Assembly: GCF_029168945.1 (NCBI RefSeq)
Contig: NC_083601.1
Span: 21,356,160-21,420,159, forward strand
Length of the DNA stretch: 64,000 nt
Direction: 5' to 3'
Source: Cannabis sativa
Taxonomy: Eukaryota; Streptophyta; Magnoliopsida; Rosales; Cannabaceae
Made by a program: the position numbers and the translations under genes. Positions within the stretch are counted from its first letter, which is position 1, and each line of letters starts with the position of its first letter. This document shows positions 3,611 to 43,883 of this stretch, one piece after another. Under the pieces are notes generated by a model. The model made no database searches, was not told the origin of the DNA, and saw only the letters and a program-made list of their open reading frames with translations.

Positions 3611-4259
3611 GAGATTTTTTCTATTATAAACTTAAAATGTAATAAATTTACATTTATGACCCTAAAAAAGGAAATAAACAAAAATAGAAACTATAAAGTT
3701 GTTAATTACAAAAATGCCGGCCAAGCAAAACGGAACACCATCTTCTTCGTGACCCAGCCGCACCCTTCTTCGTGACCCAGCGATCCAACCCCAACAACCC
3801 AATCTCAACCATCTTTCTTCCAAAACCAGCAAAATCAAAATCTAAAAAAATGTAGAACTCCTAGGAAACAAGCTGAATCCCGAAAATCCAAAATCAAAAA
3901 CGAAAAGGAAAAAAAAAAAACCAGGAAACCTCCATTGATGTACAAAAAAACTCAAAAACAACAATCATTGAACAAAGAAATCGCGATCAGAGGAGAAGAA
4001 CCGAGTAGAAGGAGAGCTGGAAATCAAAGAAACTCACCCATGATTGAATCAGAAGGAGAATTGAAGGTAAACAAATTTTTTCAGGAACGTGAAAACATCT
4101 TTTAGTGTAGATGAATAGTAATTTGATATTAATTGATGAAAACCGGATTAAATTGAAATAATAATGAAATATTGATGAAGCTGAGAAAAAAACAACAACG
4201 GTTTGCATGAAAATAAACATTAACGCATATAAATAATTGCTACAGTGTTTTATTCTGAA

Positions 4260-6830
4260 AACTGTTGTTTACAAGTTGTTTTACAGTGGAATAATAGTTG
4301 TTTGGGATCTACAAACTAGAAAATATGAATCTATTGTTATTAATTACTGATTGCTTTTAAAATAGTTGTTTGATAGTTGATTTAAGCTATATAAATAGTC
4401 GACAAATTTGAAAGTGTTAGATGCATAAGTTATTCCGGAAAGAGTTGTTTATTGGTTGTTTTGACAGATTAAAATAGTTGTTTGCAACTACAAAAACTGA
4501 ACCAAGTAAATAATTTACATTATTTCAGGAAACAGAACCATTACAAATATTGGTGCAGAGCAATGGGCATTGGGATGACAACAAAAACTATGTTGATTAT
4601 GAATCAAGTGGAGAATTAATTTCGACCAAGTGCACTTTTGAGGAACTAATGAGAATAATGATGGAAGAACTCCAATGCAACCATGAATCAACACAACTAC
4701 AACTGAAATATCAACTGAAGGAAGGAGGCCAACCACTACAAATCAAGGATGACAAAAGTCTGTTGTTCTACATAAAGCTATTAACGAAGGAGGTTGATTT
4801 CACAAGGTACCCATTGTGTGTGAACAAAACCAGTAACACGGCACCACCTAACCAAACAATGGTGTGAAACAATATGATCATGGAATCGTATGAGAACAAC
4901 GCGGCACAGGAAGACTTGCAGCAACCTGGAAACAACACGGCAACAACTTCCAAGCAACAACTATCTGCGCAGACGATGGGATCTGGTGAAGTTGATACAT
5001 TTTTCCTAGAAACGAATAGCAGTGTCATCGAATCAACCATACAACAACCGAGAAAACAACGAGAGAAAAAACTACGGCGGTAGATGAAGATTTTGACTTC
5101 ACCGACTATGCAAAGCTTGTGGTAACGAGAAATGGTACAGCAACTAGAAAACAACCAGGAAGAAGAAGAGGAAGTGGACAACACAGAAATGATGATCATC
5201 AATGACAAACGACATGAAACAATAGAGAAGGGGCAAATTTACAAGGACAAAGAAACATTGATAAGTACACTATGCTACTTTGCAATCAAGAAGACATTTC
5301 AATACAAAGTAGTGAAATCTTGCACAAAAGAATACAACATAGTGTGTTTGGACACAAACTGCAAATGGAGTTTAAAGGCTACAAAAAATGGAAACACAGA
5401 AACATTTATAATAAGGAGCTACGAAGAAGAACACACATGTGCAGTTACAATAAGATTTGGAGATCAACGACAAGCTACATCAAAGTTGATAGCAGATTTT
5501 GTAAAACCAAAATTCTTGAACACGAAAACAAAGTGCGGCCCCGAGACATAAAGACAGAAATGAAAGACAAATACGGAGTAAAGATGAATTACATGAAAGC
5601 ATGGCGTAGTAAAGAGCGAGCACAAACCCAGCTACATGGAAATGCTAAAGAGTCGTACAATCTCTTGCCAAGATACCTGTACATGCTACAGAAAACAAAT
5701 CCAGGTAAAAAAAATTTAAAAATTTTACTTTGAAAATATTTGTGAAAAAACAGTTGTTTTTGCGTTGTTATTTCGTTGAGTACATGTTGTTTGACAAAAT
5801 CCTGTTTGATTAAAATTCAGGAACATTAATAGACATAGAGAAAGATGATGATGACGAGTTTCAAATATGCATTTGTTGCATTGAATGTCGCTATAAAAGG
5901 TTGGCCAAACTGCAAACCAATCATCGTGGTAGACGGTACATTCCTAAAGGCCGCGTATGGAGGCACGTTGCTCACTGCCAACACACAAGATGCAGAATCG
6001 AAAATTTTTCCACTAGCATACTGCATAGTTGATTCTGAGAACGATAAATCGTGGGAGTGGTTCTTAAAAAAAATAAAAGAAGCATTCGGGGTTCGAGAAT
6101 GTCAATGCCTAATATCAGACAGACATGAAAGCATCATCAAAGCAACTAGGAAAGTGTTCCCTGAAATAACACATGGCTACTGCATCTTCCACCTCTTGTC
6201 GAACCTCAAAACAAAATTCAAGAAAAATGCAAAGCATTTCAGAGTGCCATTCTTTGCAGCTGCAAAAGCTTACACAGAAATGGAGTTTGAATTCCATATG
6301 AGGGAGCTAGACAACTTGGATAAGCGCATAAGACCGTACCTGGAGAAAATTGGCCATGAAAAATGGTCAAGGTATCATTCGAGAAAACAACGGTGAAAAC
6401 TAATAAGAAGGATAAAATTAATGATATGTTCACATATTTAGAGCGTTGTATTTGCGTTGTTTTTGCGTTGCGTTTGAGTTTTTTTTCAAAAGTAGAACTA
6501 TGACAGAAACTGTCCAAATTATAGGTACTCTACCATGACATCAAACATAGCTGAGGCACTGAACTCAGCAAATTTAGCAGCAAGGGAAACACCAGTGACA
6601 ACATTAATGGAGTGCTTGAGGGCACAAATGCAAGAGTGGACATACAATAATAGAAAGGAGGCACAAAAATGCACAACAAGGCTGACACCATCATCTGAGA
6701 AAAAACTCATAGGGAACTATGTACGATCATTGCGACTAACGGTAAGTTCGGATTATCGTTCGCATAAAGTAAAATAAAAACGCTTGTTTTTGCATAGTTT
6801 TTTGGTTGTTTTAAAGTTGGTTTAAAACAT
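4260..6830 (+). repeat. MULE-1 left arm: GTTG words at 11-bp spacing, in 5' region and introns
   Basis: GTTG(TTT) words recur every 11 bp in short runs. Examples: positions 4264, 4275, (4286 GTGG), 4297 in the 5' region; 5753, 5764, 5775, 5786 in an intron; 6445, 6456, 6467, (6478 GTTT) in the next; 6805, 6816 in the next. The runs sit in non-coding parts, with none noted in the transposase exons. Spacing is close to one DNA helical turn. Confidence 0.8.
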
Positions 6831-7260
6831 GCAGGTGAAACCAGCAAACCAGAACCTGTTTGAGGTGATAGATGAAGACAGAACAAGAATAGTAAACTTG
6901 AAGGAGAAGACGTGCACATGCAATAGATTTCAAAAAGATGAAATGCCATGTAACCATGCAGTCGCCGTCATGAAGGACTTGAACATAAACACATACAACT
7001 ACTGTGCACAATACTACACATCAAAAGCATGGCTGCAAACATATGAAGAAACAGTATACCCAGTTGGAAACGTAAGAGAATGGGAACTTCCAGAATTTTT
7101 TGAAGAAATCATAGTGTTGCCTCCAAAGGAGAGAATCAAGTCTGGAAGGCCGAGGAAAAGAAGAATGGCAGCAGCTTGGGAAACAAAGAAACAAAACAAG
7201 TGTGGCAAGTGTGGACAAAAGGGACATAACAAAAAGACACTGAGAAGAATTACGGCATAG
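4529..7260 (+). pseudogene. MULE-1 MURA-like transposase, decayed
   Basis: Exon-like blocks lie at 4529-5704, 5820-6394, 6525-6740 and 6834-7260, separated by short introns that contain GTTG arrays. In order: an N-terminal MuDR-type segment (TKCTFEELMRIMMEELQC), a C/H-rich FLYWCH/WRKY-like DNA-binding block (CLDTNCKWSLKA ... EEEHTCAV), the MULE catalytic core (IVVDGTFLKAAYGG; CLISDRHESI), a SWIM finger (CTCNRFQKDEMPCNH) and a C-terminal zinc knuckle (CGKCGQKGHNKKT) whose last Cys is lost. Breaks include TGA 4865-4867, TAG 5081-5083, a frame change near 5530 and another near 5850. No ATG opens the first block; it follows a splice-acceptor-like TTTCAG. Family is certain; the gene is non-functional as it stands. 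Confidence 0.88.
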
Positions 7261-7264
7261 AAGT

Positions 7265-10200
7265 GGAAACAACTACACATCAACCAAAAAACAACTATAT
7301 TAAAACATTTAGAAAACACATACTGCATATTACGATTGGTTGTTACATACATTTTTTTATTGTGATTTTTTATGTGGAGAGATATTGATAATAGGGAATT
7401 GGTATTATTATCATTAATATACAAAAGAACATCAAATATTATAGTTAAATAATTAAATGAGTGGAAGAAGGTTGAAATTAATAAGAAGGAAAAATAAACT
7501 ACATAAAGTGATTACAAATGCAATTTAGTTGTTTGTCAGATGGTTGTAATAAGGTTGTTAATAGTATGCTGTCATGACTAAGAGTAAATATAAAGATTAA
7601 AAATCCAAAAATATGAACAAATTAAAAACCAATTCCAATTAAGAAAAAAACATGATAGAAACAACAACTTGTCTATGATTATGAACATAATCTGGTAATA
7701 GAAAAAACAAAAGCTACATAAAAAAAAGTAGTATTTCCAACAACAACCAATAGATAACTAAGACAAATTCTTCTTTGGACCCTTTGGAGGAGCCTCATCT
7801 TCACTATCAATAAATTCCACTTCTTTCATGCAAGCATACTTATAGAACAACACAGCAAGCCTATCACGGTGTTTCTCAACATCAAATATGGGAGGAATCG
7901 GTTTCATATCAATAAAGTATTCGGCGAATGATGCAACGAAACAACCACAGTCACTGCAAAACAACCAAAAAACAACGAGAAAAACTTAAAAAAGGAAAAT
8001 AACATTACAAATTTTAAAAACATTTGAAAATAAAAAATAAAAACAACTTACTTCGAGGTTTGTTGAGGCAAACCATCAACCTTAACAACTTCGAAAGGGT
8101 CTAAACAAACCGGTTTGTTTTCCTTTTTGAACTCATCAAACAAAGCAAAAAAGTGGGGCAACAACACCGCAAATGGCTGACAAGCTTTGATAGCAGCACT
8201 ATCTTTCATAGCAGTCGACAAGGAGTTGTACATGTACATACGCCTTTCCTCAATATTCAATCGACCAAGAATCCAATGTGATCCAGTCTCCATATGGATG
8301 ATAAAGAAAACATGATCGCACAAATGCCAAGGGGAACCACATAACATTTTTCTACCTCTTATATAATCAGCAATGGCATGCTGGGCAGTTATCAAAGAAA
8401 GATTTTTTTCTGTGCAATAAATTTTTCATACAAAGCATGAATGGTTTTGAAGAATAAGCAATCGGTGGTTGTGAACTTAACCTTTGGCTCCTTTGCATAC
8501 TTTCCTTTTTTACGTAGATAGTAAAAAATGATGTCCAGATGCTAAACAATAAAAAATGAGAAATGTTCGAAAATCAGAAAATGAATTATATTTCAACAAC
8601 TAAAAAACAACCAACAAACAACCTGAATAAAACTATAGACTGAAATTTTTGAAAAAAATCAAAAGAAAAAATAATTTAACTTACAGAATTAGTCAAACAT
8701 TGGCCATGATATGCAAGCTTGTGGAACCACATCTTGGTTGCAACATCTTCCACGCCAAAACGAAAAGGGGGAACAATCTTATCCTTACCCTTCAAGTAAA
8801 CCTTCTCCTTGTCATGCCTAACATTTAAAAAAAAAAAATAATAAAACATAAATAGTAAAGTAAAAAACAAAAAATACAAAAACACAACAAAAATGCTGAA
8901 AATAAACACTTACGGATCTTTCTTCGATCGACGTCCTTCACCAAGCCACAAGTCAAAATCAATATCGTCTTTATGTTCTACATCTTCACCAATCTTATCA
9001 TCGAGAGGACACAACCCAGCCACATACTTAACAACTCCATAACCAGAACCATCTTTAGAACTAGAAATGGAAGAGTCATACTCCATAAACGGAGACGTCA
9101 GCGCTATGGGTTTCTTAGATTTCCTCTTGTCAACAAGAGGAGTTTCTTCAACGGGAATTGGGTCATCTTCAAGTTCAATGTTAGAATCAACATTGAGACC
9201 TGTTGCACCCATCTAATATATTTTTTCCACAAAAATGAAAGAAAATAGACAGTGTTAAACACAAAAAGTATGAAGAAACTAAAAAACAACCAAAAAAAAA
9301 AATATACCTCAAAACAAACAAGACGACGATCCGTAACCTCAGCATTTTCAGAAACTGAAATCTGTTTACAAGGATCACCACCAATTCCATCTGAAGACAT
9401 CTGTTTATATATGGTATTAAAAAGGAATTAGAGCATGGTTAAAAAATAACAACCTTTACACAACCAAAAAACAACACAAAAGCAAAATTACCATAATCTC
9501 AACTGCTTTTACACCGGACTGAACAGTAGCCTCAACATCTATTTGAGTAGGGCCGTCATTGAAATCAACGAAATTCTTGATACAGAAAATAAAGGAAAAA
9601 GAAAATGGAAAAAAGTGAAGTTATTTTTTGTGAAAGACTTCAACAACTAAAAAAAAACTACATAACAACTTAAAAACAAAATAAAAACAACAAGTAAAAT
9701 AAGAAGACCAACAATAAATTGCGAACAACATAATCTACAAACACAGCCATATAAATAACATAATAAATACAAATAAATAGTCTGAAAAATAGTTGCAAAT
9801 TTCTGAAAAATAAAACATAACAAGAGACATAACAATAACATAGAATTACAAGAGCACTACCTAAAACGGACTTACAACAAAATAAACCACACAAAGTAAC
9901 TAAAACCTAGTTACATTGTCTACTTATCTACCTTCTCCTCACTATCAGTGGATTCATCATCACTGCCATTATCATTTTTTTCTTTTGAGTCAGAATCTTC
10001 ATCGGCTTGACCATCCTTCTCTTCACCTTCACTACCCTCCCCTTCTTCATCACCCATAACATTCTCTTCTTCATTTTCACCAGTTTCTTCAGATTCATTT
10101 AAATCAAAATCTGCTTCATCACCACCTCCATCATCATCATTGGAAGAGTCACTGCCTTTTTCCTATATTGAAATTACAAATTAAATTAGTATAAAACAAC

Positions 10201-12250
10201 TTAAAAAAAACCGAAAAACAACTATTGAAAAACTAAAATACCTTGGCATAGGAATCGGCAAAAACAGTAGAAAATTGTGTCTGCATTGAAGCCATCTGAG
10301 CACCAAAAGAAACAAACTGTGCAGACACAAACTCTTTCAACTCAACCAAATCAGATGAAATCTTCTGTTGGGAAGTATGCAACGAATCGATCTTGACCTC
10401 CAACCCATGAAATTTCTCAGAAAAGGCATCAAGCTTGACAGAAATGTCACTCTGAGCAACAGTTGGCTCTTCGGGAAGAGGAAGACTCTTGTAAGAGTTG
10501 TAGTCGGTGTCGAACTTGAAACTGCTTCGGTCAAAGCTTTGAACTCACCAGCCGTGGGCCTCATATTTGAAAGTTGCAGCTGATCAAAAAACACCAAAAT
10601 TAAAATTTCAATTATGAAGATTATTAATAATGAAAAACAACACAAAAACAACTACTGAAAAACCAAATTACAACAAACAGATATACCTTATCTTTGGAAA
10701 CATCAAAGATAGTAGTCTTCAAAACTTTGAAAGTAGGTTGACTATTGCATGTCCACTGAGTGATCCTTGGAATACGAGAGCTTTCCTTTTGGCAGTACTT
10801 ACCTTTCATGTACTTACAACACTCGTAGAACCAAACTTGAAGAACATGAGGACAACCAATCAAAGTGTAAAAAACACTCGGCCTCTTTCCCGAACTCCTT
10901 GCCTTCCTAACACCCTCAACCTAACTATCAAGCTTACCCTTCAATGAGGAAATAGTCAATTCAAAAGAACTCCGGCCCCAAGCAAATTCATTGTACCTCC
11001 CACTATCTACAACATCTAAAATAGACTTGGGTACATTTTTATGCTTAGTGCCACTAAGCAAGAACCACTCCACGAAATACAAAACGCCAACTTCACAAAG
11101 CATCCTCATCGAATCACCCCACCTCTTGGTGGTAAAACATTCCTAACGATTCCTTAGTGATAGAGGACGAAGTTGGCCAATATCTTTCACAAAGACTATT
11201 AACCTCTTGCTTAAAATCTAAGACACTACAGTCACCTTCACAGTCTAACCCAGTAATCAATGCAAATTCCTCAATGCTAAACCTAAGCCTAACACCGCGT
11301 ATCATTACCCACAACTCAGCATCATTAGGTTGCTGAACCTCCCGGAGCAACAACCCATGAAACACTTGGGGTTGAACTTTGAAATCGGGAAGGTTAAGGA
11401 AATGACCAAAATAGGTTTTTGAAAACATTTCAAGCTGTACATCTGAAAGACAAGACTTAATGTTCTCTATCACCTGGAAAGTAGCAGTGGAAAAGGCTTT
11501 CGCAATAAATAGATTCTTCTGGTCATAAATATAATCTCATTCCTGTATCAATATAAACAAAATAAATCAGGACAAAAACAAAAAAAAACTAAAAAAAAAA
11601 CAGAAAACAAATAATAAAAATAATTTTTTTTTTTTAAAAAAAGGACACCTTAGGGGGATTTTTCTTTGGTAGGTCAAATCCTTCAACCTTCACTGAGGTC
11701 CTAGCATGGACCTGCAAAAAAAAAGAAATACAAAAGCAACAATTCTTAGATACAATAACAATGAATATATAAAAATGTAGTAACCAAATTACAGCCAATA
11801 AAAAACCTAAAAACAACGTTTATGAAACCCTTACAGTATGATAAATGTAAGAGATAAACAACTTTCAAAAAAATACAGTAACAACACTGTCACAACTTAA
11901 AAAAAAATAACTAAAATATTAACAACACTGTACAAGCTCGTTGTTATGAAATTTCGAAAATGGTAGTCGATAATAGTAGTGTGACAAACAACCGAGAAAA
12001 AACTGACAATAAACATATAAAAAACTAAAGAATAAACAACACTGAAAGATCTTGTTGCAATTGAAATTAGTAAAATGCTTCTCAATACCAATAGTGTGTA
12101 AAACAACCGAAAACAAATTCACAATAAACATATAACCAACCAATGGGGAAAAGCAATTCAAAACTGTAACAAAATACGAATTGAACTGGGCAATTTTTCA
12201 ACAACCAAACAACAACTGAATAAAAACAACAAAACAACATCAACCACAAT
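7265..12250 (-). repeat. MULE-1 right arm: CAAC words (GTTG on - strand) at 11-bp spacing in introns and 3' regions
   Basis: On the + strand the word reads CAAC/AAAC, the reverse of the left arm, so the two arms are mirror images. Examples: 8597, 8608, 8619; 10197, (10208 AAAC), 10219, (10230 AAAC); and runs near 7265-7300, 7965-7980 and 9650-9690. They fall in introns and flanks of the protease gene. The region 7261-7757 between the two convergent genes holds only such words and AT-rich DNA. Confidence 0.7.
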
Positions 12251-12790
12251 ACATGACAGAAATACATAAAGAACACCAAAAAAACATAAAAACATCCTAA
12301 AAACACCTAAACCAGTGACCTAAAAAGCTCATGTAAAAATTAACACAATAAAATGAAACCAAGCAAATTTAAATTACCTTTGATTCAACTTTGGGCTTTT
12401 GGTCCTCACCATGCACTTCATCCTCAAAATCAGAATCTGAGGAAACCTAGAACAAAAAATGGGGAAAACTTTAAATCATCAAATGTAACACCACAAATAA
12501 AACAACCAGAAAAAAACTAAAGAAAAATTTAAAAACAACAAAGAGAAACTTACATCGCGTGCAGACTTGGAAATTTTTGCTCTCTTAGTCTTAGGAGCAT
12601 CGGCTTTAACAGGAGGGGCTCTTTTCTTAGTGCCCGATGTCTCTGGAACATCAGCCACTAAATTTTTAGCAATTTTTTTTAACCCCATCTTAGGTTCGAC
12701 TTTGGAAGTAACAGTTGGAGCCTTCTTCGATTTTTTAGAAACTTTCTTCGCCGGAGATGGTGATTTCGAACCACTTCTAGTGGTTGCCAT
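7758..12790 (-). pseudogene. MULE-1 DUF1985 / Ulp1-like C48 peptidase gene, decayed
   Basis: Read from 12790 leftwards. A Lys/Ser-rich start exon (12554-12790, ATG MATTRSGSKSPSP) is followed by small exons 12378-12446 and 11649-11711. A DUF1985 block (~10920-11545; VFHGLLLREVQQPNDAELW, FALITGLDCEGD) continues to ~10690 (CPHVLQVWFYECC). Next come a coiled-coil-like part (10230-10583), an acidic stretch (~9940-10163), a linker (8914-9575), and the peptidase domain (7758-7953 and 8052-~8830). Peptidase residues seen: His in SHWILG, Asn where Asp is usual (MYNSL, AAC at 8225-8227), Gln in GLPQQTS, Cys in DCGCFV. A stop near 10921 and frame changes near 11110, 10500 and 8400 break it. In VANDAL MULEs, related genes (VANC) act against silencing; that role is inference here. 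Confidence 0.8.
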
Positions 12791-13155
12791 TTATATAGAG
12801 AAAATATAGTGGAGGATGACAATGTAGGTTGAGGAAAACGTGGGTGAGGGCTTGGAGAAGGTGATCGTGGGAAGAAGAAATTGGTTAGGGCTTGATAATG
12901 GTGATCGTGGGAAGCTCGGTTTGAAGAGTGGAAGAATCAGATAAATGAAAAATTCAAAAAAAAAAAAAATAAGAAAGGAGTTATGAGGTGGCGTGCGTGT
13001 ACGTGTGTAAGGAAGAAGGGAAAAGGTAAAATTGTAATTATTAAACTTTTTGAAAAGTAAAATTGAAAAATGTAAAAGTTAAAAAAGTTTAAAAAACCGT
13101 GTATGGATAAAAATGTAAAAAAGGTGTCAATTTTGACATGAGGTGTAAAAATCTC

Positions 13156-13164
13156 TATAAATAT
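13156..13164. repeat. Target-site duplication, right of MULE-1 (TATAAATAT)
   Basis: Exact copy of 3602-3610, directly after the AAAAATCTC end of MULE-1. Confidence 0.75.
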
Positions 13165-13180
13165 ATATATATATTTATAT

Positions 13181-13592: not shown

Positions 13593-13628
13593 TGTATTTA
13601 AATTTTAATATATATATATATATATATA

Positions 13629-17275: not shown

Positions 17276-18301
17276 ATGAGTAATATTAGAGTGGATGTTG
17301 ACAAGTTTGATGGATCGGGGGACTATAGGATTTGGAGGAAGAAGATTAGAGCTCTTCTTGCTCATAACAAATTACTTAGGATTCTTAGTGAACCCATAGA
17401 ATGGCCAGAAAATACTTCTAAATGTACACAAGAAGAACTTCTTGAAACTGCTACTGGTTTAATCATTTTTAACTTGTCTGATGCTATTATCAGGTTAGTT
17501 GATAAAGAAGATACACCAGCAAAAATATGGAAAAAGCTTGAAGATCAGTTTCAAAAGAAATCTTTAATCAACAAGATTTTTCTTAAAGAAAGGATATTTG
17601 GTTTCAAGATGAGCACTAGCAAGACTCTTGATGAAAACCTAGATGAATTTCTAAGGTTACATATTGAATTGGCTAATTCTGGTGAAAATGAGGCTTTAAG
17701 TGATGAGAACCAAGCCATCATCATCTTAAACTCATTACCCGAATCCTACAAAGAAGTGAAGAATGCCATTAAATATGGTAGGACAGAAATTACTTTAGAA
17801 GAAGTAATTTCAGCCTTGAAGTCAAAAGACTTGGAGATCAAGAATGAGAAGCATGGAGGTTCTAATGGAGAAGTAAACTTCAGTAGAGGGAGACCCAATC
17901 AAAGAAAACATGGACACTACAAAAGTAAAAGTCACAGTAGAGATCACCACAAAGGAAAGAGTCACAACAAGGGAAGATCAAACTCAAAAGAACCAACTGA
18001 TCCTACGGGATGCTACAACTGTGGCAAGCCAGGGCATTTTAAGAGAGATTGTTATTTTCTAAACAAAGGCAAACCAAATAAATATAAAGGACAGGGAGAA
18101 AATTCTAACTCTAAACCTAATTTTCATAAAAATAACCAAGCTAATTATGGTGATGGTTATGAGAGTGTTGATAGTGGTGAAGTATACATTGCTGCATCAT
18201 CTTTTAAAGATGATTGGATTTTAGATTCAGGTTGTACTTTTCATATGACTAATGACAAGAGTTATATGTTTGATTATAGGGAATCAAAGGAGGAAAAGTA
18301 A
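17276..18301 (+). pseudogene. Copia-1 gag and protease part of the polyprotein
   Basis: Starts at ATG 17276 (MSNIRVDVDKFDGSGDYRIW), a typical copia gag opening of the UBN2/retrotran_gag type. A basic His/Lys/Ser-rich linker leads to a CCHC zinc knuckle (CYNCGKPGHFKRDC, about residues 244-257) and an aspartic protease motif (DWILDSGCTFHM, about residues 315-326). The frame ends at TAA 18299-18301. Reading one frame over gives GGKVILGNN and continues the protease/integrase linker, so a single-base deletion near 18290 is the likely cause. Gag forms the virus-like particle; the protease would cut the polyprotein. Confidence 0.93.
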
Positions 18302-20091
18302 TCCTTGGAAACAATCAGACTCGTGAGATTAAAGGCTCGGGATCTATCAGATTTAAAATGTATGATGGGATAGTAAGAACCCTAACAGCAGTGAGGTATG
18401 TGCCTAATCTTTCTAGAAATTTAATTTCTATTAGTGTGCTTGATGATTTGGGTGTTGTGAGTAAGGTAGAGGCAGGTCATATGAAGCTTAGTAGAGGAGC
18501 ATTAACAATCATGAAAGGAATAAAAAATGGTGGACTTTACTACCTACAAGGCTCTCCTATTTCAAGCTGTAACATTACAACTCACAACGACAAAGAAGAA
18601 GAGACAGCTACTCTATGGCACAGAAGATTAGGGCATATAAGTGAGCGAGGCTTGCATCTCATGAGTGAGCAACAACTGTTGGGTAAGGATAAAGTGAGTA
18701 AACTAGACTTTTGTGAACATTGCATACTTGGAAAGCATCACAGATTAAAGTTCACAGCAGGTACTCACAACTCTAAAAGAATACTTGAGTATGTACATTC
18801 TGATTTATGGGGTCCAGAAAAAATCAGCACTCATGGTGGTTGTTCTTATTTCTTATCTATAGTAGATGATTATTCTAGGAAAGTATGGATATATCTACTT
18901 AAGAATAAAAATGATGCTTTTACAAAATTCAAACATTGGAAATTATTGGTTGAGAACTTAACTAATGAAAAGCTGAAAACTATAAGAACTGATAATGATT
19001 TGGAATTTTGTAACAATGAATTTGACCTCTATTGTAAAGAAAATGGCTTGCAGCGACATAGAACAGTGAGGATTACACCTCAGCAAAACGGGGTGGCTGA
19101 AAGAATGAACCGCACCATACTAAACAAAGTAAGGTGTATGCTACTTCAGTCAGGATTATCTCAAGGGTTTTGGGGAGAAGCTGCCTTGACAGCAGTTCAA
19201 CTAATAAATAGAAGCCCATCAAGAGCAACTGAAGGTAAAACTCCCGAGGAGAAATGGTCAGGTAAACCTCCAAACCTTTCTCATGTGAAAGTTTTTGGAT
19301 GTGCAGCTTATGCACATCAAAGCATAGGAAAACTTGAACCTAGGGCTTTAAAGTGTGTTTTCTTAGGGTACCCCGAAGGGGTAAAAGGGTATAGACTTTG
19401 GGTAAAGGAAAAAGGGGGATTTAAAACTATGAATAGTAGAGATGTTATATTCCAAGAAAATATTTTTCCTTGTTTACCTAATGAAAAGTCTAGTGCAGGA
19501 ATGGAAGATACTAACCCTGCAGGTACAAACCTAGAAGTTAAAACCAGTTCTAATCAGGTGGAACAAAATGAAGACACACCGGGAATGGTTCAGGTGGAAC
19601 CTAACCAAAGCTAGCAGCCCATGAACAATGGTCAAGGGGGAAGAACTGATGCTCAACAAGAGATCAGGGATGAAGACACCGAAGAGGACCTTACAAACTA
19701 TCAGTTGACAAGGGACAGATCTAAGAGGACTCCGAAGCCTAATCAGAAATTCAGCTACAACATTTGGAGTGAAAAATTGGCTTATGCTCTTCTAACAGAT
19801 TTGGAAATGGATGATATGGAACCCAAGACTTATAATGAGGCAGTAAATGGAAAGAATTCTAAGGAGTGGAATAAGGCCATGGATGATGAGATGGGATCTC
19901 TCAAGAAGAATAAGACTTGGGTTGTGGTACCAAAACCCGAGGGTAAAAGTATTGTGTCTTGTAAGTGGTTGTTCAAGCACAAGGAAGGAAGATCTAAAGA
20001 TGAGCCTATAAGGTTCAAGGCTAGGCTAGTGGCTAAAGGTTTCACACAAAAGGAGGTATTGACTTCAATGAGATTTTCTCTCCGGTGGTGA
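18302..20091 (+). pseudogene. Copia-1 integrase to start of reverse transcriptase, interrupted
   Basis: Continues in a shifted frame from about 18290. It shows the pre-integrase zinc site (LWHRRLGHIS, HCILGKH), the integrase core (VHSDLWGP, FLSIVDDYSRKVW, IRTDNDLEF, TPQQNGVAERMNRT) and the linker with KVFGCAAYAHQ. The Asp-Asp-Glu residues are visible. An in-frame TAG at 19612-19614 breaks it, then the frame reopens (19615-20091) into the reverse-transcriptase N-terminus (WNKAMDDEM, FKARLVAKGFTQKE). A single-base deletion near 20055 shifts the frame, with TGA at 20089-20091. Confidence 0.92.
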
Positions 20092-35134: not shown

Positions 35135-35142
35135 TTTGGCAA
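35135..35142. repeat. Target-site duplication, left of MULE-2 (TTTGGCAA)
   Basis: TTTGGCAA is repeated exactly at 43884-43891, directly outside the inverted GGGAAATTTC ends. Confidence 0.9.
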
Positions 35143-35250
35143 GGGAAATTTCATTTTTTGCCCTTAATAATATATCTCATATCAAATTTTATACCCCTTA
35201 CTAATTTATACAAAACAATTCCACTATTTTCAAATTCTACCCAAAATACC
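35143..35250 (+). repeat. MULE-2 left terminal inverted repeat
   Basis: GGGAAATTTCATTTTTTG..., CATATCAAATTTTATACCCC and CTAATTTATACAAAA match the reverse complement of 43776-43883 with scattered differences. Confidence 0.92.
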
Positions 35251-35763
35251 CCTTACATTTAATTTTCCCACTCTCTCTTTCCCTCTCTCTCTGTCTTTCC
35301 CACTCTCTCTCCGACTTTTCCTCTTCGTCCCTGCCCAAAAACAAAACAACCGAACAACCAAATCGAACCCGACGACGACGACCACGCATACGCCGAACCC
35401 AACAACCCTCTTCTTCCCACTCGATTTTTCCCTCTCTCTCTCTATCTATCTCGGTCTTGAATTCGACCCGTGCTCGTGGAAACCACCACGAACAGTCGCC
35501 AACACAGGCCATCGCCAGTACCCGTGCTCGTCGAAACCCAACACAGGCCATCGCCACCACAACCACGGACCGTCGCCACCACCACAAAGCTCAGTCAAAG
35601 GTAAGTTTTTCTTTTTCAAAAAAAAATTAATTTTTTAATAGATTTGGATGTGAAATATTGCATGTTGTTGAAATTAGTGGAATTTTTGTATATTTTGTGC
35701 TCTTTCTTGTGGTAGGTTGTATATGTTGGATATGTTTCAATGGTGTTTGTGTGTTTTTACATC

Positions 35764-36256
35764 GTTATCGATGAAATGTCGATAGGATATCGATAGGATA
35801 TCGATATATATAGGTTTCTGTTTATGTGTTTGAACATTGTTGTCGACAGGTTGTCGACATAATGTCGACAATTTGTCGATGGTTTACCTTTGTTTGATGT
35901 TATGTAGTTTTGCCATGTGATGTCGACAATTTGTCGACTATTTGTCGATAGTTTGTCGATAATAAGTTGTAGTTGATTCTTTTGGTAGTTTGCTGTTAGA
36001 ATGTCGACAATTTGTCGACAGTATGTCGATAGGTTGTCGATAATAAGTTGTAGTTGATTATTGTGGTAGTTTACTGTAGAATGTCGACATTTTGTCGACA
36101 GTATGTCGATAGGGAAGTTAGAGTTGATTCTGTTGGTAGTTAATTGGTACAATGTCGACGATTTGTCGACTGTATGTCGATTGTATGTCGACCAGTTATG
36201 AATGTTTGATAATGTCGACAGAATGTCGACATGATGTCGATGTTATGTCGACATTT
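35764..36256 (+). repeat. MULE-2 left arm: TGTCGA words at 11-bp spacing in clusters
   Basis: About 30 TGTCGA words in 500 bp. In the best cluster TCGA falls at 36004, 36015, 36026 and 36037, exactly 11 apart. Clusters of three or four start at 35921, 36002, 36081, 36152 and 36213 (TGTCGA), spaced about 60-80 bp, joined by a spacer with AGTTGTAGTTGATT. The word is often the palindrome TGTCGACA but trends to TGTCGATA in this arm. It lies between the TIR and the ATG of the protease gene. Confidence 0.93.
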
Positions 36257-36302
36257 CTTAACTTTTTTGACATTTAAATTTGTTTGGTCTTTGATTTTTC
36301 AG

Positions 36303-39163
36303 ATGGCTCCCAGACTCATTATTCCAGCACCCGAGCATTTCACTGGCCGCGTCACATATAGGGGCACTGGAATTTTTGCAAAAATCAAAGCTCGGTTTGA
36401 GGAGTTCAACCTTAATAACACGGCGAAGGAAAGCCGTTTCGGGAGCTTCTGGAATGCCGTACCACTGACATTCTCCTCGGTGTTATTTCACCAGCTGATG
36501 CTCCACAAAATGAAAGTGGATGCTCAGGAGGAGTTGAGGATGAGGTTTTATGTTGGTCGGAAGGAGGTCCGATTCGGGGTGCTGGAGTTTGCACTCATTA
36601 CGGGTTTGGACTTCTCCTCGGGGCCAACAGGATAGGAGAAGGCTGCGCAGGTCGCGCGCTCGGGGTCAGACCGATTGATCAACAAATATTTCAACCGGTC
36701 TGATAGTGTGAAGACAGAAGCACTCCAACTTCAGTTCACAAACTGCCAGAACCCGGAAGACTTGTACAAGCTCGGCTTGTGCTTGTTTGTGGAGTCAGTG
36801 CTTCTGGGCCGCGAGGCCAACGCGCTGATCACGCCTCACATACTTAGATATGTGGAAGACCTCGAGTTCTTCTTCCGGATTCCTTGGGGGAAGCACTCAT
36901 TCGCCAGACTCATGCACTCGCTTCAGAAAGACATGTTGAAACAGAAGGCCAACTACGAGAAGAAGCTGAGTTCGGATGTTCAGCACGAGTGCAAATACAC
37001 AGCATATGGCTTCGCACCTGCAGTCCAATATTGGGCGTACGAGGCCATTTTGGAGGTTGGCAAGAGGTATGGCACGAACCACGGGATTCGGTTCCCCAGG
37101 ATGCTTAGCTGGACGAGCAAAGGCGATATTGGGAAGAAAGACGTCAGCGCATTATTTTCTAGACGGGTATGATTTTCACTTATGTTCTGAATAATTATTT
37201 AACATAAATGCTTGTAATAAATGCTAAATGGTTTTATTTTGATATTTTTTAAACCATAAACAGAATCTGGAAGTGGTGAAGGGGCTACTTCCACGGACAG
37301 AGGAGGAGGCATTTGTGAGGACAATATCTTACGATGGTGTGGAGAACCTGGTTGATGATGTTGTGGATGACACAGAGGCTGAGGCAGGTAGTCAGGTACC
37401 AGAGACTCAGGTCCCAGACACTCAGGAAAGAGACACTCAGGTACCAATTTCTGGAACTTTTTTTTATGTCTTTATTTTTTATTATTTTTTTTATATAGTG
37501 GAGGGTATATCGTATGCTTACCGTATTTTTTTGATATATATTTTTTCAGGCCACTGGTTCAGAACCTCAGCCCAGTGCACCATCTGCATCAGGCGTTCGG
37601 GGTGCCGAGTACACTGATTTAGTGGCTCGGTTGGATAGGATCGAGGCTGACACTCAGGGTCTGTATGCTGCTCATGTCGAGCTGAAGAAGGCATACGAGA
37701 CCAGCCATGTAGAGCTGAAGGGTGGTCAGAACGTAATTATGGAGCAGCTCAGACACATATTGGCCATGTTGAATCGTCCGCCAACGACAGCTTCAGCACC
37801 GGAGGCCCCAGCAGATCCATCTACCCCACCACCAGCTGCTTCACCCCCAGTAGAAGAGGATGAGGTCTTCCCCGACGATTACGATCCTTATGAGGGAGCT
37901 CCAGCGACTCCGATCGAGGCACAACCTCTTATCCATGTACATGACACCGAGTCGCAGGGTGAGATTCTGTCCATAGAGGCACAACCTGCAGTGGTTAAGA
38001 GTCGGAAGAGGAAGAGAAAGCCTCCTGTATGGTTCGGTGACTATACGGAGATGAAGAGGAGACATAGGCCATCTTCGACTTTTGATCCACAGGAGCCACG
38101 GATGAGAAATTGTTAACCACTTTCCGAAAGTGGTGTGTTGGACTCATTCCGAACCACCGACTTCGGGATTTGAGAAGTGGTGATTACGGTCCAGGATTCT
38201 TTTGGATAATGCTCACACCAAAGGAATGGCTTACAGATGACGTAAGTAAAGTATTTTATAATATTACTTCACTTTTCAACTTTATGTACAATGCAATTAA
38301 TATATTTTTTTGTGTAACTGACATTTCCCTTTATATGCAGCATATAGATGCAGCAATGCATATGCTGAGGAGGCGACGCACCGACTATCCACTGACATTT
38401 CCTTAGAAGGGTATCATTCTCTTCACATTCGTGACCGCCATGATCAGCAGTGCATGGACGAGCCACAAGGGTCCGAGGAAAAACTTTAAATGGGAGGATT
38501 ATATCCTGGACTACTGCACAGGGGCTCATAAGGTATTGTTTTAGTAAGATTTTAAATGTCAATTGTTTGGGAAGATTATTATGGTTTGTTAATTGTTTCG
38601 TTGTTCTCTGTAATTACAGTCCCAAGTCTTTGAGAGATGGAGGGGTAACGAGTTTATTTACTTCGTTCTGAACCTTCCCACGGCAAGGCACTGGGTCACA
38701 GTTGAAGTCGACATAGAGCTGTGGAAAATTAATGTCTACGACTGTGATTCCAGCGTCTGTCATTGGACCGCCATGGAACCCATCATGAAGGATTGGGCAG
38801 AACTGCTGCCCTCGCTAATCCTTGCAACCGGGGAATTTCCACATAACAACCAGATCATGGCGTTAGCTAACGGTGACATCACGGTGCTTCCAAAAATGCA
38901 CGCGACTCGAGCCACTCACGACTTAGTTCCGAAGTCAGCAACCAGGTACATAGCGATAAAAAAGTACTATAGTATTGAAATATGTTTTACGTTAGACTGA
39001 CTTTACATTTTATTTTGCATTTAGTGGTGATTGTGGTGTGTATTGCATTGAGTATGTGGAGCATCTCATGATGCAGCGTGGATTGACCGATGTGACGCCA
39101 GACCGGATAGCCATGTTTCGTCAACGGTGGTGTGTCGATTTATTTTACCAAAATGTCGGCTGA
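36303..39163 (+). pseudogene. MULE-2 DUF1985 / Ulp1-like C48 peptidase gene (nearly intact)
   Basis: Six exons with GT-AG introns: 36303-37166, 37264-37440, 37550-38241, 38341-38532, 38620-38945, 39025-39163 (TGA 39161-39163). It starts MAPRLIIPAPEHF at the first ATG after the TCGA array. Exon 1 encodes DUF1985 (FGVLEFALITGLDF; FFRIPWGKHSFARLMHSL). Exons 2-3 give an acidic/Pro-rich linker, a helical segment and a basic patch KSRKRKRKPP that could be a nuclear signal. Exons 4-6 hold the C48 domain with His (RHWVTVEV, CAC 38689-38691), Asp (VYDCD, GAC 38740-38742) and Cys (SGDCGVYC, TGT 39031-39033). Lesions: TAG 36633-36635, a one-base loss near 38105, TAG 38404-38406 (Gln expected). Ulp1 relatives cut SUMO; DUF1985/C48 proteins of MULEs may instead act in anti-silencing (inferred). 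Confidence 0.88.
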
Positions 39164-39425
39164 TTATATGTGTAATTATTGGGACATTGTATATTTTGTG
39201 TAATTAACATTACAGTTATGTATATATAGATTTTCTTTTCGTTCAAATTTTGATAATTATACGTGGTTTCAAATATAAAATATCAACATTATTCAACAAA
39301 AATAACTATTAAACCTAAAAATAATTAAAATATTTGAAAAATATTCAACCTCAACAAAAATAACTATGACAAAATATGCATCATTACAATATATCAAATT
39401 TCCCAACGAATACGTACAAGACGCC

Positions 39426-42058
39426 TCAGATGCGGGCTTTGCATGTTGCTCTGTTGTGGCCTGAACTGTCACAGCGGCTGCAGTTTCGTGGTACAGAACC
39501 TTTTTTATCACCAGACGGGAAACGGTTCTCCCGTCTTCTTCCAGCGTTGCTTTTTCTTGGACGACCTACAGGCTTCTTTTCCACAGGTACCCCAACTTTC
39601 ATATTCTTGATGTGTTCTGGGAGAACCCAATCATCCTCGTCACCAGCAAGATTGATGGTATCATCGTAAATCTTCCTCCACGTTTCTTTTGAATAATAAG
39701 GTGAGCAAAGCGTGTACACACTTGTGTTCGTTTTCAATGCCGCGGCACATGCATGAAGGCAAGGGAGTTTCAATAACGTGAACACGCCGCAGGTGCATGT
39801 TCTTTCAACTAGATTCACATCACCACCTCTTTCACCGTTAGGTCCCCTACCAACGTTATACAAATTGGCTCCATTTCGTTGGACGCGCCTGTACCTTGCA
39901 TTTTCATGAATTTTTGCCAAGTTTTTTTCGAAGAGCGTGGCCAAAGGGGTGGCACATTTGTCAGCATTTTCGAGGCGATCAGCGAACCACGATTGGAGTG
40001 TGAACCTGATAAATTCAACCAAAGTAGTTATTGGATATTTCCTGAATTCTTCTGTGACACTATTGAAGCTTTCAGCAGCGTTGCTCGTCATGATGTTGTA
40101 TCTATCGCCCAAACAATAAGGGTGAGCCCACTTCTCAAACCCTATACTCTCCACATATGCAGCAATGGCCGGATTCATCTTTCTAAGCTTCTCGAACTCT
40201 CTATCGCATTCAGTCTTCGACCATGCGTAAGCAACATTATATATTTGGTTGTGAAAAGCATCAGTCTTGAATTTGGCGTTCACGTTCATAACAATGTGGT
40301 GATAGCATGCACAGTGGACTGCTTCGGGAAAAACGAGTTCAACAGCATGATCAATGCTTTGATGCCTATCTGACACAAACAATAAGTTCTCAACCACGCC
40401 AATTGCTACCCTCAACTTCTGTAAGAAATACGTCCAGGAGTCGTTATTCTCACTGTCAACGATACCATAAGCAATCGGCAACAATTGGTTGTTCGCATCG
40501 TATGCCACAGCAACTAACATTATACCGCCGTACTTCGTCTTCAAGAAGGTGCCATCGATACTCAAAACAGGACGACAAAAAGAAAAGCCCCTTCTACATG
40601 CACCGAGTGATATAAAACAGTACTTGAACCGCTCATCCTCTAAGTACAAGTCAGTAATGGTACCTGGATTCTTCTGTTCCAGCATGTACAAGTACCCAGG
40701 AAGCTTCATGTATGAAAACTCAGGCGTACCCCTAGCATACGTAAGTCCCATCTCCCTGCACCTCCACGCCTTCACATAACTCATACTGATACCGTAGTTG
40801 TCAAACATGTCCCTCTGTATGTCTTTAGCCTTGTACTTAGTTCCGTCTTGGGTGTACTTCCCCTTAATAAGGTGGCCAACTACCCATGGTGCTGCTTGAC
40901 GGTGATCTGAACGTCTCGCATTCAAGTTACATGTGTGTTCATTGTGAAATACAGTGACCTCAAAGTTGTCAGAATGCATCTTCTTCCTCCCCTCAATCTC
41001 CATTTACAATCTGGAGCCTTGCATGTAACGTACAACACATCAGGGGATGACTTCTTCACCATCCACTCGAAATTGTTATTAAGGGCAAACCTACCCACAA
41101 CTTGTCTCAGTTCTTCCTTGTTTTCATAAAAATTACCAAGCTCTATCACCCCTGCTTCCTTACTTTGTAAACAAGTAGTTAGCTCATGATTTTCCATTAT
41201 ATCTTCCTTTGTCCACATGGGAGCTTTGAACTTGGTACAAACTTCGAAAGAGGAGAACGTTGAGAACGTTGCATGACGAGCATGTTCTTCGCCGCCTGGT
41301 CGACTACTGCTAGTTCCAGGTGTAGTGCGATTTTCACTACGAGGTTGTCGTTCTCGCTGTGTACCTTGGTTACTCGGTACACACTCTAACCTCAACAATG
41401 GTCCCGCTACGGGTTCATCGACTGCTAAATCATGCTCATCGTCCATATTCAAATCTACAATAGGATCATTATTGTAGAAGGGTGTATCGAACTCTTCAAA
41501 CTGATGAAATCCTGTCGCTTCTTGTTCTTGCCCTACATTGGTCGGAACATCAAAATTGGTCGGAACCTCTAAATTGGCCGGAACCTCCTCATTCACACCA
41601 ATCCCAACATCTGTTTCGGGAACGCAAGACCCTACCACACTCCGAGGGAGAGGATTAGTAGGCGGCGTAGGCTCCGAATTCCCAACTTTTCTCACCTTGG
41701 TCACGAATAATGGCATAAACTCTGTATTTGACATTGTTGCCCTCATCTCTAAAAACGTTCTCAGTTGGCGTTCTCTCTTAATAACCTCTGGCGCAACCAT
41801 TTTTCCCTTCATGTACAGGGAACAAATCTCCAACTTTAAATCATACGCTACCGGATCAACTTCCAACTCTTCATATAAAATTTGTCGCAGTTCTTGTAGG
41901 GTTGTCTCGGTTGTAACTGTCAACGTCAAGCTGCTATTTGCTTTGTAGATCCAATTATAATTCTCACATAACCAAACACCATCGTACGATACAACAAGGA
42001 ACACTTTGTCTCCTGCAATTGCAAACCAAAAAAACAAGGTGAGTAAAGGAAAAAACAC
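39426..42058 (-). pseudogene. MULE-2 MURA-like transposase, one frameshift
   Basis: Two overlapping frames on the - strand (42058-40922 and 41003-39426) join at a frame change in a G-run near 40990. In order: an N-terminal MuDR-like part (VVSYDGVWLCENYNWIY, TLQELRQILYEELEV), a long acidic linker, a C/H DNA-binding block (CKAPDCKWRLRG ... HNEHTCNL), the MULE catalytic core (VLSIDGTFLKTKYGG, LFVSDRHQSI, followed by the CxxH segment CACYHHIV), the conserved block MTSNAAESFN, a SWIM finger (CTCGVFTLLKLPCLHACA), an AT-hook-like VGRPRK, and an intact zinc knuckle CSRCDSSGHNRATC. A splice acceptor (GCAATTGCAG, ~42015-42024 on the - strand) suggests an upstream intron, so the true start may lie further right. 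Convergent with the protease gene; 262 bp separate the stops. Confidence 0.93.
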
Positions 42059-42064
42059 CCAAAA

Positions 42065-42450
42065 AAAATAAAAATCGACATCCCATCGATATCAATAGAC
42101 ATAATGTCGAGAAGCACAACATCAGAAATTAGGGCACTGAATGTCGACATTGTGTCGACATATTATCGACATACAATCGACAACAACAACAACCATGCTC
42201 GTCATCGACATAATATCGACATACCATCGACATTCAATCGACAATTAAAAACGGTTGCACATTTAATGTTAATAAATTTTACCTACGTTCCCAACAACCC
42301 TTCCCAACTGAAACGTTGCATGTCAGACACGTGTCCTATCGACAACATATCGACATGAAGTCGACATGTCGTCGACAAATGTGTTAGCAGTGACACTTAA
42401 TTGGCATGTTGTCGACATGATGTCGACATAGTATCGACATTCAGTCGACA
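42065..42450 (-). repeat. MULE-2 right arm, inner TCGA array
   Basis: TCGA at 42144, 42155, 42166, 42177 (11-bp steps), with more triplets and quartets near 42205-42240 and 42410-42450. In this arm the word reads ATCGACA, the reverse complement of TGTCGAT, so orientation is inverted relative to the left arm. It covers the 5' region of the transposase. Confidence 0.92.
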
Positions 42451-42529
42451 AATACGCCATTTCATGCGTTTTCCCTGTACAGTTACGCATTTAATGACCA
42501 TTAAATTTTCATACATTCCCAACATTTTT

Positions 42530-42545
42530 ACTGCTCTATAAAAGC
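42530..42545 (+). promoter_or_regulatory. TATA-box promoter candidate for the small MULE-2 ORF
   Basis: CTGCTCTATAAAAGCAAAGG carries a good plant TATA box (TATAAA) about 95 bp before the ATG at 42631, followed by a CT-rich leader as in plant 5' UTRs. Confidence 0.6.
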
Positions 42546-42630
42546 AAAGGGAAATCTTATTCATAAGTGCTCTTGTATTCTACCTATCTCTTACTCTTAA
42601 AAATTTCTCTTATTCTCTTAAGTTTGAAAT

Positions 42631-42960
42631 ATGGCCCCAAGAAAGAACGGCAAATTCCCCATCCTAACTCCTAAAGAGCTGAAGCAGGAGCCTGATGTTG
42701 GCATAATTACTCCTGCAATGCAGAAAGTTTTGGACGCCGCTCGAGCTTTCGAAAGAGAACGAAATGGTAACGAGTTCAGGTTCATGCAACTTGAAAGAGA
42801 ATTTTGCAAAACTGGTGTATGGCCGGCTCCACCACACAGGTTCCCAGAAGGATGCCGTCGTTGCAAACTGGGCATCTTCAACGGTAAACCGGTGAAGCCT
42901 GGAACATTATGCAAGTATTGCAAGGCTCACCCACAAGCCAAAGAATTTAAAAAAAAATAA
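42631..42960 (+). CDS. Small Cys-rich protein of MULE-2, 109 aa, function unknown
   Basis: An intact 109-codon frame (ATG 42631, TAA 42958-42960) with good context AATATGGCC and an upstream TATA box. The start is MAPRKNGKFPILTPKELK. The C-terminal half has two CxxC pairs (CRRC and CKYC, about residues 71-74 and 93-96) joined by an 18-residue Gly/Pro/Lys-containing loop, a plausible zinc ribbon, and ends in a Lys-rich tail. I do not recognise the family. It lies between two TCGA arrays in the right arm, divergent from the transposase. It is the only MULE-2 gene without a lesion. It could be a third element-encoded protein, in the way VANDAL elements carry vanB, or a captured host fragment. Confidence 0.6.
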   Translation: MAPRKNGKFPILTPKELKQEPDVGIITPAMQKVLDAARAFERERNGNEFRFMQLEREFCKTGVWPAPPHRFPEGCRRCKLGIFNGKPVKPGTLCKYCKAHPQAKEFKKK

Positions 42961-43129
42961 TTTCTTATGTTATGGTTTGTGGTGAGTTTTATTTAATGTT
43001 TGTTTTTTTTTATGAACTTTTATTTTCTGTTTTTTTTTTTTATGTTTTTTTATGTTATTTTTAATGAACTTTATTTTATGTTAATGTTATGTTATGTTTA
43101 TGTTTTATTCACGGTATTTTTCCATTGCA

Positions 43130-43385
43130 TCGATATTTTGTCGACATGATGTCGACAAAAAATCGACAACTTCTTAAAAAAAGAAAAATGCTTGTTGTCG
43201 ACAGAATGTCGACAAAAATGTCGACAAAATGTCGACAAATAGTTAATACCATGTTGGTTGCATGATGTCGACAACATGTCGACATAATGTCGACATAACG
43301 TCGATAATGGTCGTCACTGACCTTTCCTTTGTAATCATCGACAAACCATCGACATATCATCGACATATCATCGATAACACTGGAA
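43130..43385 (-). repeat. MULE-2 right arm, outer TCGA array
   Basis: TCGA at 43130, 43141, 43152, 43163; 43198, 43209, 43221, 43232; 43268, 43279, 43290, 43301; 43338, 43349, 43360, 43371. This gives four quartets with internal steps of 11 (one of 12), and quartets about 68-70 bp apart. No coding frame. Confidence 0.95.
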
Positions 43386-43775
43386 AACCCAGAAATCGAC
43401 TGAAAACCAGATCTGCCAGATCTCAACAATTTCAGACCAAAAAACAGCAGTTCCAACAATAAACACACGTATAACAATTTTAAACTACATAAAGTCAAAC
43501 AAAATGCTTAAAATACAACTTACCCATTATAATGGTGTAAGATTCTTGAGTGATGTTGTATTGTGCTTCGGTTTTCCACCAACACCCACCGAGAAAACAA
43601 CCATTCAACAGCAAATAAAGAGAGTGGGACGGATAGAGGGAAATTTTTTCATAAATTTTTCAATTTTTTTCTAGAGAGAGAGAGTGGTGCACGAGAGAGA
43701 GGGAAGAGGGAAGAGAGAGAGAGAGAAATACCACTTTCAGATTTTAGCTTTTTTTTTTTTTTTTAAAAAAAAAAG

Positions 43776-43883
43776 GGTAAAATGGGATGTTCATGTAATT
43801 AATGGACTAAATTTGTACAAATTAAGGAAGGGTATAAATTTTGATATGGCTTGTATTATTAGGGTCAAAAATTGAAATTTCCC
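43776..43883 (-). repeat. MULE-2 right terminal inverted repeat
   Basis: Reverse complement starts GGGAAATTTCAATTTTTGAC and includes CATATCAAAATTTATACCC, matching the left TIR. GA-rich DNA (43670-43730) lies just inside. Confidence 0.92.

Follow-up and report, generated by a model that had tools for sequence, protein, structure and literature searches.

The stretch of Cannabis sativa DNA analysed here (64,000 nucleotides, C1:21356160-21420159 of the 770.7-Mb genome; hereafter the window) holds two Mutator-like elements (MULEs), complete at both ends, which we call MULE1 and MULE2. Both combine the transposase gene MURA with an oppositely stranded gene whose product has DUF1985 within its first half and an Ulp1/C48 domain at its end, and which we compare below with VANC, the anti-silencing protein encoded by Arabidopsis VANDAL transposons. 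Both window copies are broken by in-frame stops and frameshifts. We keep to the term MULE and do not apply the name VANDAL, which depends on MURA belonging to the VANDAL clade. The genes and boundaries of the two elements, in window positions, are as follows.

3611-13155, no strand: MULE1, whole element, from its target-site duplication (TSD) and sequence reading
3602-3610 and 13156-13164: TSD of MULE1, TATAAATAT, 9 bp
4040-7258, plus strand: MULE1 MURA transposase gene, with Pfam MULE and SWIM matches; frames broken
about 4040-4067, 4529-5706, 5821-6373, 6524-6744 and 6836-7258, plus strand: MULE1 MURA exons, limits read by eye
7764-12790, minus strand: MULE1 VANC-like gene (DUF1985, coiled region, C48), about 13 exons, broken
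10696-11541, minus strand: MULE1 DUF1985 exon, matching VANC21
7764-8540, minus strand: MULE1 C48 (Ulp1-like) exons
35143-43883, no strand: MULE2, whole element
35135-35142 and 43884-43891: TSD of MULE2, TTTGGCAA, 8 bp
36303-39163, plus strand: MULE2 VANC-like gene (DUF1985, coiled region, C48), with stop and frameshift
36303-37168, plus strand: MULE2 DUF1985 exon, whose close relative P0001 matches VANC21
38339-39163, plus strand: MULE2 C48 (Ulp1-like) exons
39429-42013, minus strand: MULE2 MURA transposase, frame change near 40.9-41.0 kb
42628-42957, plus strand: MULE2 small open reading frame (ORF), 109 aa with CxxC pairs, between two arrays

Pfam matches for all three domains lie above the curated cut-offs: DUF1985 at 4.8e-20 in MULE2 and 5.7e-24 in MULE1, C48 at 8.7e-16 and 8.4e-19, and the MULE transposase at 1.9e-26 and 7.7e-25. 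MULE2 is bounded by a terminal inverted repeat (TIR) of about 70 bp, about 85% identical when counted on the alignment; MULE1 has hardly any TIR, its termini matching exactly over 9 bp only (GAGATTTTT). Together, the domain matches, TSDs and termini bear out the original prediction of two MULEs with MURA and a DUF1985/C48 protein. Between MULE1 and MULE2, protein identity is 27% for DUF1985 and 21% for C48 as against 38% for MURA, and by this measure the VANC-like protein diverges more than the transposase, in agreement with the statement in Hosaka 2017 that VANA is far more conserved than VANC. The 109-aa ORF of MULE2 has no Pfam match, and a stretch related to it is fused at the C-terminus of P0003, a relative of the MULE2 protein.

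That the DUF1985/C48 protein corresponds to VANC had been proposed from architecture and from the occurrence of DUF1985 in VANC-like proteins, and both points are supported. We searched all PDB chain sequences (177,635 distinct) with the DUF1985 part of the MULE1 window copy and, in place of the MULE2 protein, with P0001, which is 92% identical to it. VANC21 (9lnj, 9lnk) was the sole credible match for either query, at E 3.2e-7 for MULE1 and 1.6e-7 for P0001, whose other row stood at 0.028; family profiles reached VANC21 at 9.6e-13 and 2.4e-10, the next PDB match lying at 0.027. The VANC21 stretch itself scores as DUF1985 in Pfam (E 7.5e-30), and Hosaka 2017 gives DUF1985 and DUF287 as domains of VANC proteins. 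DUF287 reaches 20.6 bits in the VANC21 stretch, just below the cut-off of 21, and is not a defining domain if Ulp1-bearing VANCs count as VANCs. The DUF1985 parts of MULE1 and, by way of P0001 and the profile, of MULE2 are thus homologous to VANC21.

Relatives of these proteins are abundant, both in the databases and in the genome. The best protein matches of the window genes come from Cannabis sativa and then from hop; a search based on a mixed alignment brought up records from Cannabis, hop and ENA, none of them named Arabidopsis VANC. P0011, a MULE1 relative of 1030 aa in which both DUF1985 and C48 are predicted, belongs to a cluster of 139 member sequences, and P0002 (645 aa, DUF1985 only) to one of 223; P0001-P0006 are relatives of the MULE2 protein, with both domains in P0001, P0003 and P0004. 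All 150 of the 150 genomic DUF1985 loci scored lay above the Pfam cut-off (1690 candidates at first look), and the genome holds at least 43 loci of MULE1 type, at least 47 of MULE2 type and at least 30 of the type of P0017, a sister family of MULE1 with a DUF1985 42% identical. No relatives of P0011 or P0002 turned up in IMG/VR; a TGTCGACA pair pattern matched 51 viral stretches, which we took as chance and left unused. A DUF1985 protein of hop, P0009, is also listed with PF14223 (copia gag), perhaps a mis-joined gene model.

The state of the C48 domain was read by eye only. An active Ulp1/C48 peptidase has the catalytic residues His-Asp-Gln/Asn-Cys; in the relatives these residues look partly altered, His and Cys being present in both P0011 and P0004, YNSL standing in P0011 where Ulp1 has YDSL, and Asp being kept in P0004, where Gln was not readily placed.

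The second component of both elements is a word of their own. We counted all 6- to 8-mers on both strands against a first-order Markov expectation, and the top non-coding words were TGTCGA and its extensions (TGTCGAYA) in MULE2, and GTTGTT and its extensions (GTTGTTT) in MULE1. The 3.4 kb of MULE2 non-coding DNA contain 79 copies of TGTCGA, where 2.25 are expected; the 5.3 kb of MULE2 coding DNA contain 3, and the 45.7 kb elsewhere in the window 11. GTTGTT occurs 59 times in MULE1 non-coding DNA (7.9 expected), 14 times in coding DNA and 53 times elsewhere, and for GTTGTTT the corresponding counts are 40, 4 and 15. Relative to transcription, GTTGTT stands 50 times in sense and 9 in antisense, and TGTCGA 54 and 25 times, palindromes being counted on both sides. 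Each element therefore carries a dense, same-orientation, element-specific and mainly non-coding motif, much as originally claimed, and the arrays occupy promoter and intron regions, coding DNA holding few of the words:

4264-4482, plus strand: MULE1 GTTGTTT in MURA intron 1, two modules (slots 1-2-4 filled, 11 bp) and further sites
5753-5791, plus strand: MULE1 four-slot module in a MURA intron, slot 3 weaker
6445-6825, plus strand: MULE1 modules in two more MURA introns, partly degenerate
7940-12540, minus strand: MULE1 GTTGTTT (AACAAC on the plus strand), mostly in introns of the DUF1985/C48 gene
35766-36253, plus strand: MULE2 left array, seven TGTCGAYA modules directly upstream of the DUF1985 ATG
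42073-42450, minus strand: MULE2 middle array, upstream of MURA, with five modules of which the first is degenerate
43128-43376, no strand: MULE2 right array, four modules

Could these arrays serve the transposase, or the product of the 109-aa ORF, with the DUF1985 protein as a passenger? In favour of this, each element has arrays of its own kind, and of the three in MULE2 two are found close to MURA or to the right end. There is also a precedent in maize Spm, in which TnpA binds repeated 12-bp subterminal sites. However, MULE1 has its sites at a distance from the ends, all through the introns of the DUF1985/C48 gene; neither MULE1 nor its relative L114 showed anything corresponding to the small ORF; and the word differs between MULE1 and MULE2 though MURA diverges less than the VANC-like protein. 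Moreover, the characterised DUF1985 relative does bind arrays of this kind, VANC21 being described in Hosaka 2017 as binding short same-orientation motifs in the non-coding parts of its own element, with different motifs for VANC6. We regard the transposase alternative as unlikely.

Within the arrays the words keep a helical phase. Exactly 11 bp separates neighbours in 37 of the 57 gaps between 58 MULE2 sites, and among same-strand pairs at lags of 6-49 bp, multiples of 11 account for 68 of 93 in MULE2 (binomial p 4e-50) and 24 of 35 in MULE1 (p 2e-17). In MULE1 the pairs at 11, 22 and 33 bp number 8, 10 and 5, with few at neighbouring lags. Across both elements, 500 dinucleotide shuffles never gave more than two pairs at a lag of 11, 22, 33 or 44.

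The phase does not run on indefinitely, and in MULE2 it stops at four sites. Among the 16 MULE2 clusters in the window, 11 consist of exactly four consecutive sites, a 12-bp step occurring in one of them; in three others the fourth slot falls short of the threshold by one match, one has three sites and one is degenerate; none has five, and MULE2 sense pairs at lag 44 are absent. The same holds in the wider family, for which we took, from 14 further copies selected to cover 64-100% protein identity, the 700 bp that precede the DUF1985 ATG. TGTCGA arrays are present in all 14, with 13-27 sites each, and over the 15 copies the 395 TCGA sites form strict runs of one, two, three and four in 39, 31, 22 and 57 cases, with no run of five or more, of which a geometric model expects 22. 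When empty slots are allowed, 79 of 125 modules in these copies span four slots and none spans more. In F4 (L134), a sister family with the word GCGAYA, a search that permits steps of 10-12 bp yields four modules with exactly four sites each (32-34 bp overall), besides one module of three sites and two single sites. MULE1 is looser, its multi-site runs spanning two to four slots in most cases. In the upstream MULE2 arrays of the 15 copies, neighbouring modules are most often separated by 35-38 or 46-48 bp, equivalent to some 3.5 or 4.5 helical turns; we do not build on this half-turn offset, as inherited tandem duplication or common descent could account for it.

Tandem duplication is also the starting point of another explanation, namely that the arrays are slippage minisatellites without a bound protein, their core conserved merely through the youth of the copies. 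Some MULE2 modules are indeed clear tandem duplicates, with an 81-bp period at 35920-36113, and the array of a further family, L131, is a 91-bp tandem repeat. Slippage sits poorly, however, with the distribution of conservation: in the 11-bp unit of MULE2 the TCGA columns hold 1.65-1.77 bits as against 0.13-0.45 in three spacer columns. Across the 15 upstream pieces the mean major-letter frequency is 0.971 in 108 TCGA columns and 0.793 in 562 others, an excess with p < 1e-6 within each base, though the alignment of repeats may somewhat inflate the conservation of TCGA columns. The core is thus better conserved across copies down to 64% protein identity, and both the absence of runs beyond four and the dearth of TGTCGA in MULE2 coding DNA speak further against slippage, which we hold to be quite improbable. 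For MULE1 the comparison rests on L116, a relative with 71% coding identity, in which GTTGTT is kept in 21 of 35 cases and permuted control words in 36 of 102 (Fisher p 0.016); two close MULE1 copies, at 97-99% identity, gave no difference between word and control (35 of 37 and 102 of 108; 34 of 38 and 101 of 109), as expected at such identity. The CpGs of TCGA are retained in 361 of 388 cases, with 10 of 15 in the sole non-motif CpG control column, and with one such column we make no claim of CpG protection or germline hypomethylation.

Does the word follow the protein across the genome, as had been predicted? For MULE2, F4 and MULE1 it does, and clearly different words are found in the MULE1 group, in MULE2 and in F4, the sister of MULE2. 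In 30 pooled MULE1-family loci GTTGTT reaches 14.8 per kb in non-coding and 1.03 per kb in coding DNA, and TGTCGA occurs once in their 51.8 kb of non-coding DNA. F4 is 57% identical to MULE2 relatives over 70 residues of the N-terminus, and its word has changed.

Taken together, we consider it probable that MULE1 and MULE2 represent autonomous-type MULE families with a VANC-type anti-silencing system, fused to an Ulp1/C48-like domain and acting through a word of its own. This proposal draws on gene content, homology to VANC21, the arrays and their phase, the four-site limit of MULE2, core conservation and the agreement of word and protein in MULE1, MULE2 and F4; binding, cooperativity, demethylation and the role of C48 are steps that we infer.

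A number of observations weigh against this proposal, and they are gathered here. On the protein side, homology to VANC21 is confined to the DUF1985 part, and Pfam detects no DUF287 in P0011, P0004 or P0017. AlphaFold models of both proteins are poor (mean pLDDT, predicted local distance difference test, of 31 and 28), because there are too few diverse relatives, and we therefore make no fold claim and no fold comparison of the DUF1985 part. Foldseek, queried with this poorly modelled P0011, had no hit at E <= 0.001; the top rows were C48-type, and VANC21 was absent from the best 50 of 162 rows. On the side of the modules, copies share descent, so that modules are not independent counts, and five-slot runs do exist: one in the MULE1 window copy and one in L114 (none in L115 or L116), and one in each of the P0017 elements L112 and L113.

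The words, too, are not always distinct or in phase. In the P0017 family GTTGTT reaches 6.6 per kb in non-coding DNA and as much as 4.09 per kb in coding DNA, and its commonest long form, TGTTGTTTT (3.47 per kb non-coding, 1.05 per kb coding), is equally dense in MULE1 relatives (3.45 per kb) and does not separate the two. Only AGTTGTTT does so, with 130 occurrences in MULE1-type non-coding DNA and none in 42.4 kb of P0017-type non-coding DNA (30 in P0017-type coding DNA), and the words of the two families overlap. L112 shows a modest phase, with 13 pairs at lag 11 as against 9 at lag 14, the next highest; in L113, where lag 11 has 7 pairs and the runner-up 6, the phase is unconvincing. Seven further families (L131-L137, F4 among them) were sampled once each, over 1.1 kb upstream of DUF1985. 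L137, whose nearest relatives among the families compared are of P0017 type, has modest phase, AGTTT giving three pairs each at lags 11 and 22; in L131 the step is 10 bp within 91-bp repeats, with paired CGACCAT and ATGGTC words, direct and inverted, at positions 1-740; in L133 and L136 a word is enriched, but with no clear phase; and L132 and L135 show no clear word in the one copy of each. The predicted correlation of protein clade with array word thus stands for three families, with P0017 overlapping MULE1 and two of the seven further families lacking a clear word. The strict helical phase likewise holds as multiples of 11 bp in MULE1 and MULE2, only within modules of up to four sites, and loosens to a step of 10-12 bp or a weak phase in some other families.

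The overlap with P0017 also bears on whether the MULE1 word is anything more than a splicing signal or the U-rich composition of introns. GTTGTT favours the sense strand and is found in T-rich introns (46% T in non-coding DNA), which counts against our proposal, and the introns of the sister family hold TGTTGTTTT at equal density. Yet the shuffles yield on average 9.6 and at most 21 copies of GTTGTT, as against 50 observed; those shuffles give at most one pair at each of the lags 11, 22 and 33, as against the 8, 10 and 5 given above; and AGTTGTTT is absent from the sister-family introns. Among the alternatives considered, composition is in our view the least probable.

How might a VANC-type system of this build work? 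The DUF1985 half would probably recognise the element's own word (TGTCGAYA in MULE2, GTTGTTT in MULE1), and the protein would load cooperatively, filling as many as four sites per module at roughly one site for each helical turn. DUF1985 is followed by the coiled segment, a 70-residue helix in the otherwise poor P0011 model; this segment could perhaps join monomers into an oligomer that fills the four slots, and the dense arrays in promoters and introns would confer family specificity. Bound protein would lead to the removal of DNA methylation from its own element family, upon which the element's genes could be expressed and the element become mobile. As for the C48 half, it may act on silencing factors by editing a SUMO-like modifier that they carry, or may now be structural only; SUMO as its target we keep as a guess, given that SUMO ligase activity is reportedly not required in MOM1/PIAL silencing.

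The four-site module is the least expected part of the system. It did not appear in the accessible parts of the VANC literature examined, in which no search was aimed at it, and the available text of Hosaka 2017 makes no mention of motif spacing, helical periodicity or 11 bp. We would tentatively go further, though with less than even confidence, and suggest that VANC-type proteins may read a fixed four-slot module with a four-fold reading head, about 33 bp from first to last site and one helical turn per site, in which the grammar stays while the word changes, so that new specificities would arise by word change in an unchanged frame. Were this so, Cannabis MULE2, F4, MULE1 and the other families would form a natural record of word changes. 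The limit in MULE2 yields a specific prediction of stoichiometry that the VANC21 structures could help to test and, if true, would make short four-site cassettes possible minimal tags for sequence-specific demethylation. How one protein selects a whole transposon family, and how that choice evolves, is a central question of transposon anti-silencing, and the many genomic DUF1985 loci, in families with different words, allow word, spacing and protein to be compared family by family.

Beyond the two elements, the window holds remnants of other kinds. A broken copia-type long terminal repeat (LTR) retrotransposon lies at 17276-21389 on the plus strand, with gag, integrase core and RVT_2 in consecutive ORFs, and a second copia-type reverse transcriptase fragment at 50147-51253 on the plus strand (RVT_2, 1e-58). 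A perfect 133-bp tandem duplication (100% match) at 25627-25896 overlaps the beginning of an ORF on the minus strand that encodes an RNase H-like RVT_3 domain; a 71-bp repeat unit made of CATCGGGCCCA words follows at 26304-26460; and part of a polygalacturonase-type gene, of glycosyl hydrolase family 28, occupies 1407-1961 on the plus strand.

It remains to set the Cannabis elements beside systems already described. Like VANC21 of VANDAL21 (Hiun) in Arabidopsis thaliana, their proteins are MULE-encoded and carry DUF1985, and VANDAL21 likewise has element-specific same-orientation motif arrays in introns and in intergenic and terminal non-coding DNA. Unlike them, VANC21 has the motif YAGTATTAY and a DUF287 stretch, whereas the Cannabis proteins are fused to C48. 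VANDAL TIRs are described as degenerate in PMC10398659, a 2023 EMBO Reports paper that treats VANC and RNA-directed DNA methylation, unlike the roughly 70-bp TIR of MULE2, with 9 bp in MULE1; some VANDAL-clade members are described as having TIRs. VANC6 of Arabidopsis VANDAL6 is a related VANC with its own motifs, AGTTGTCC and AGTTGTAC, and a separate target set; the AGTTGTTT of MULE1 has AGTTGT in common with both, which could be coincidence or kinship of specificity.

Ulp1-like genes in MULEs have been met before. In melon, rice and grapevine, ULP-bearing MULEs are already known, with the Ulp1-like gene in either orientation to MURA, and in the accessible text of PMC2528002 they are treated, unlike here, as captured host genes, without arrays or anti-silencing. 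Kaonashi and KIU, of Arabidopsis and eudicots, likewise join VANC and Ulp1 in a MULE and, according to a 2026 review (PMC13317346), act on own-group motifs. The Cannabis families differ from Kaonashi and KIU in bearing their own words. The same review states that some VANC genes carry an Ulp1 domain and that eudicots conserve this domain strongly, for which it refers to Sasaki et al. 2022 (EMBO J 41:e110070). Work by Sasaki and colleagues reportedly covers gains and losses of DUF1985, DUF287 and Ulp1, together with motif sequence, density and helical periodicity. Given this prior description of Ulp1-bearing VANCs, neither a system outside the Brassicaceae, whose novelty the original prediction had implied, nor helical spacing is new in kind. 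Judged by their titles, the three papers listed in one literature search are not studies of Cannabis MULEs, and the case described here is a well-documented plant example of a kind of system already described.

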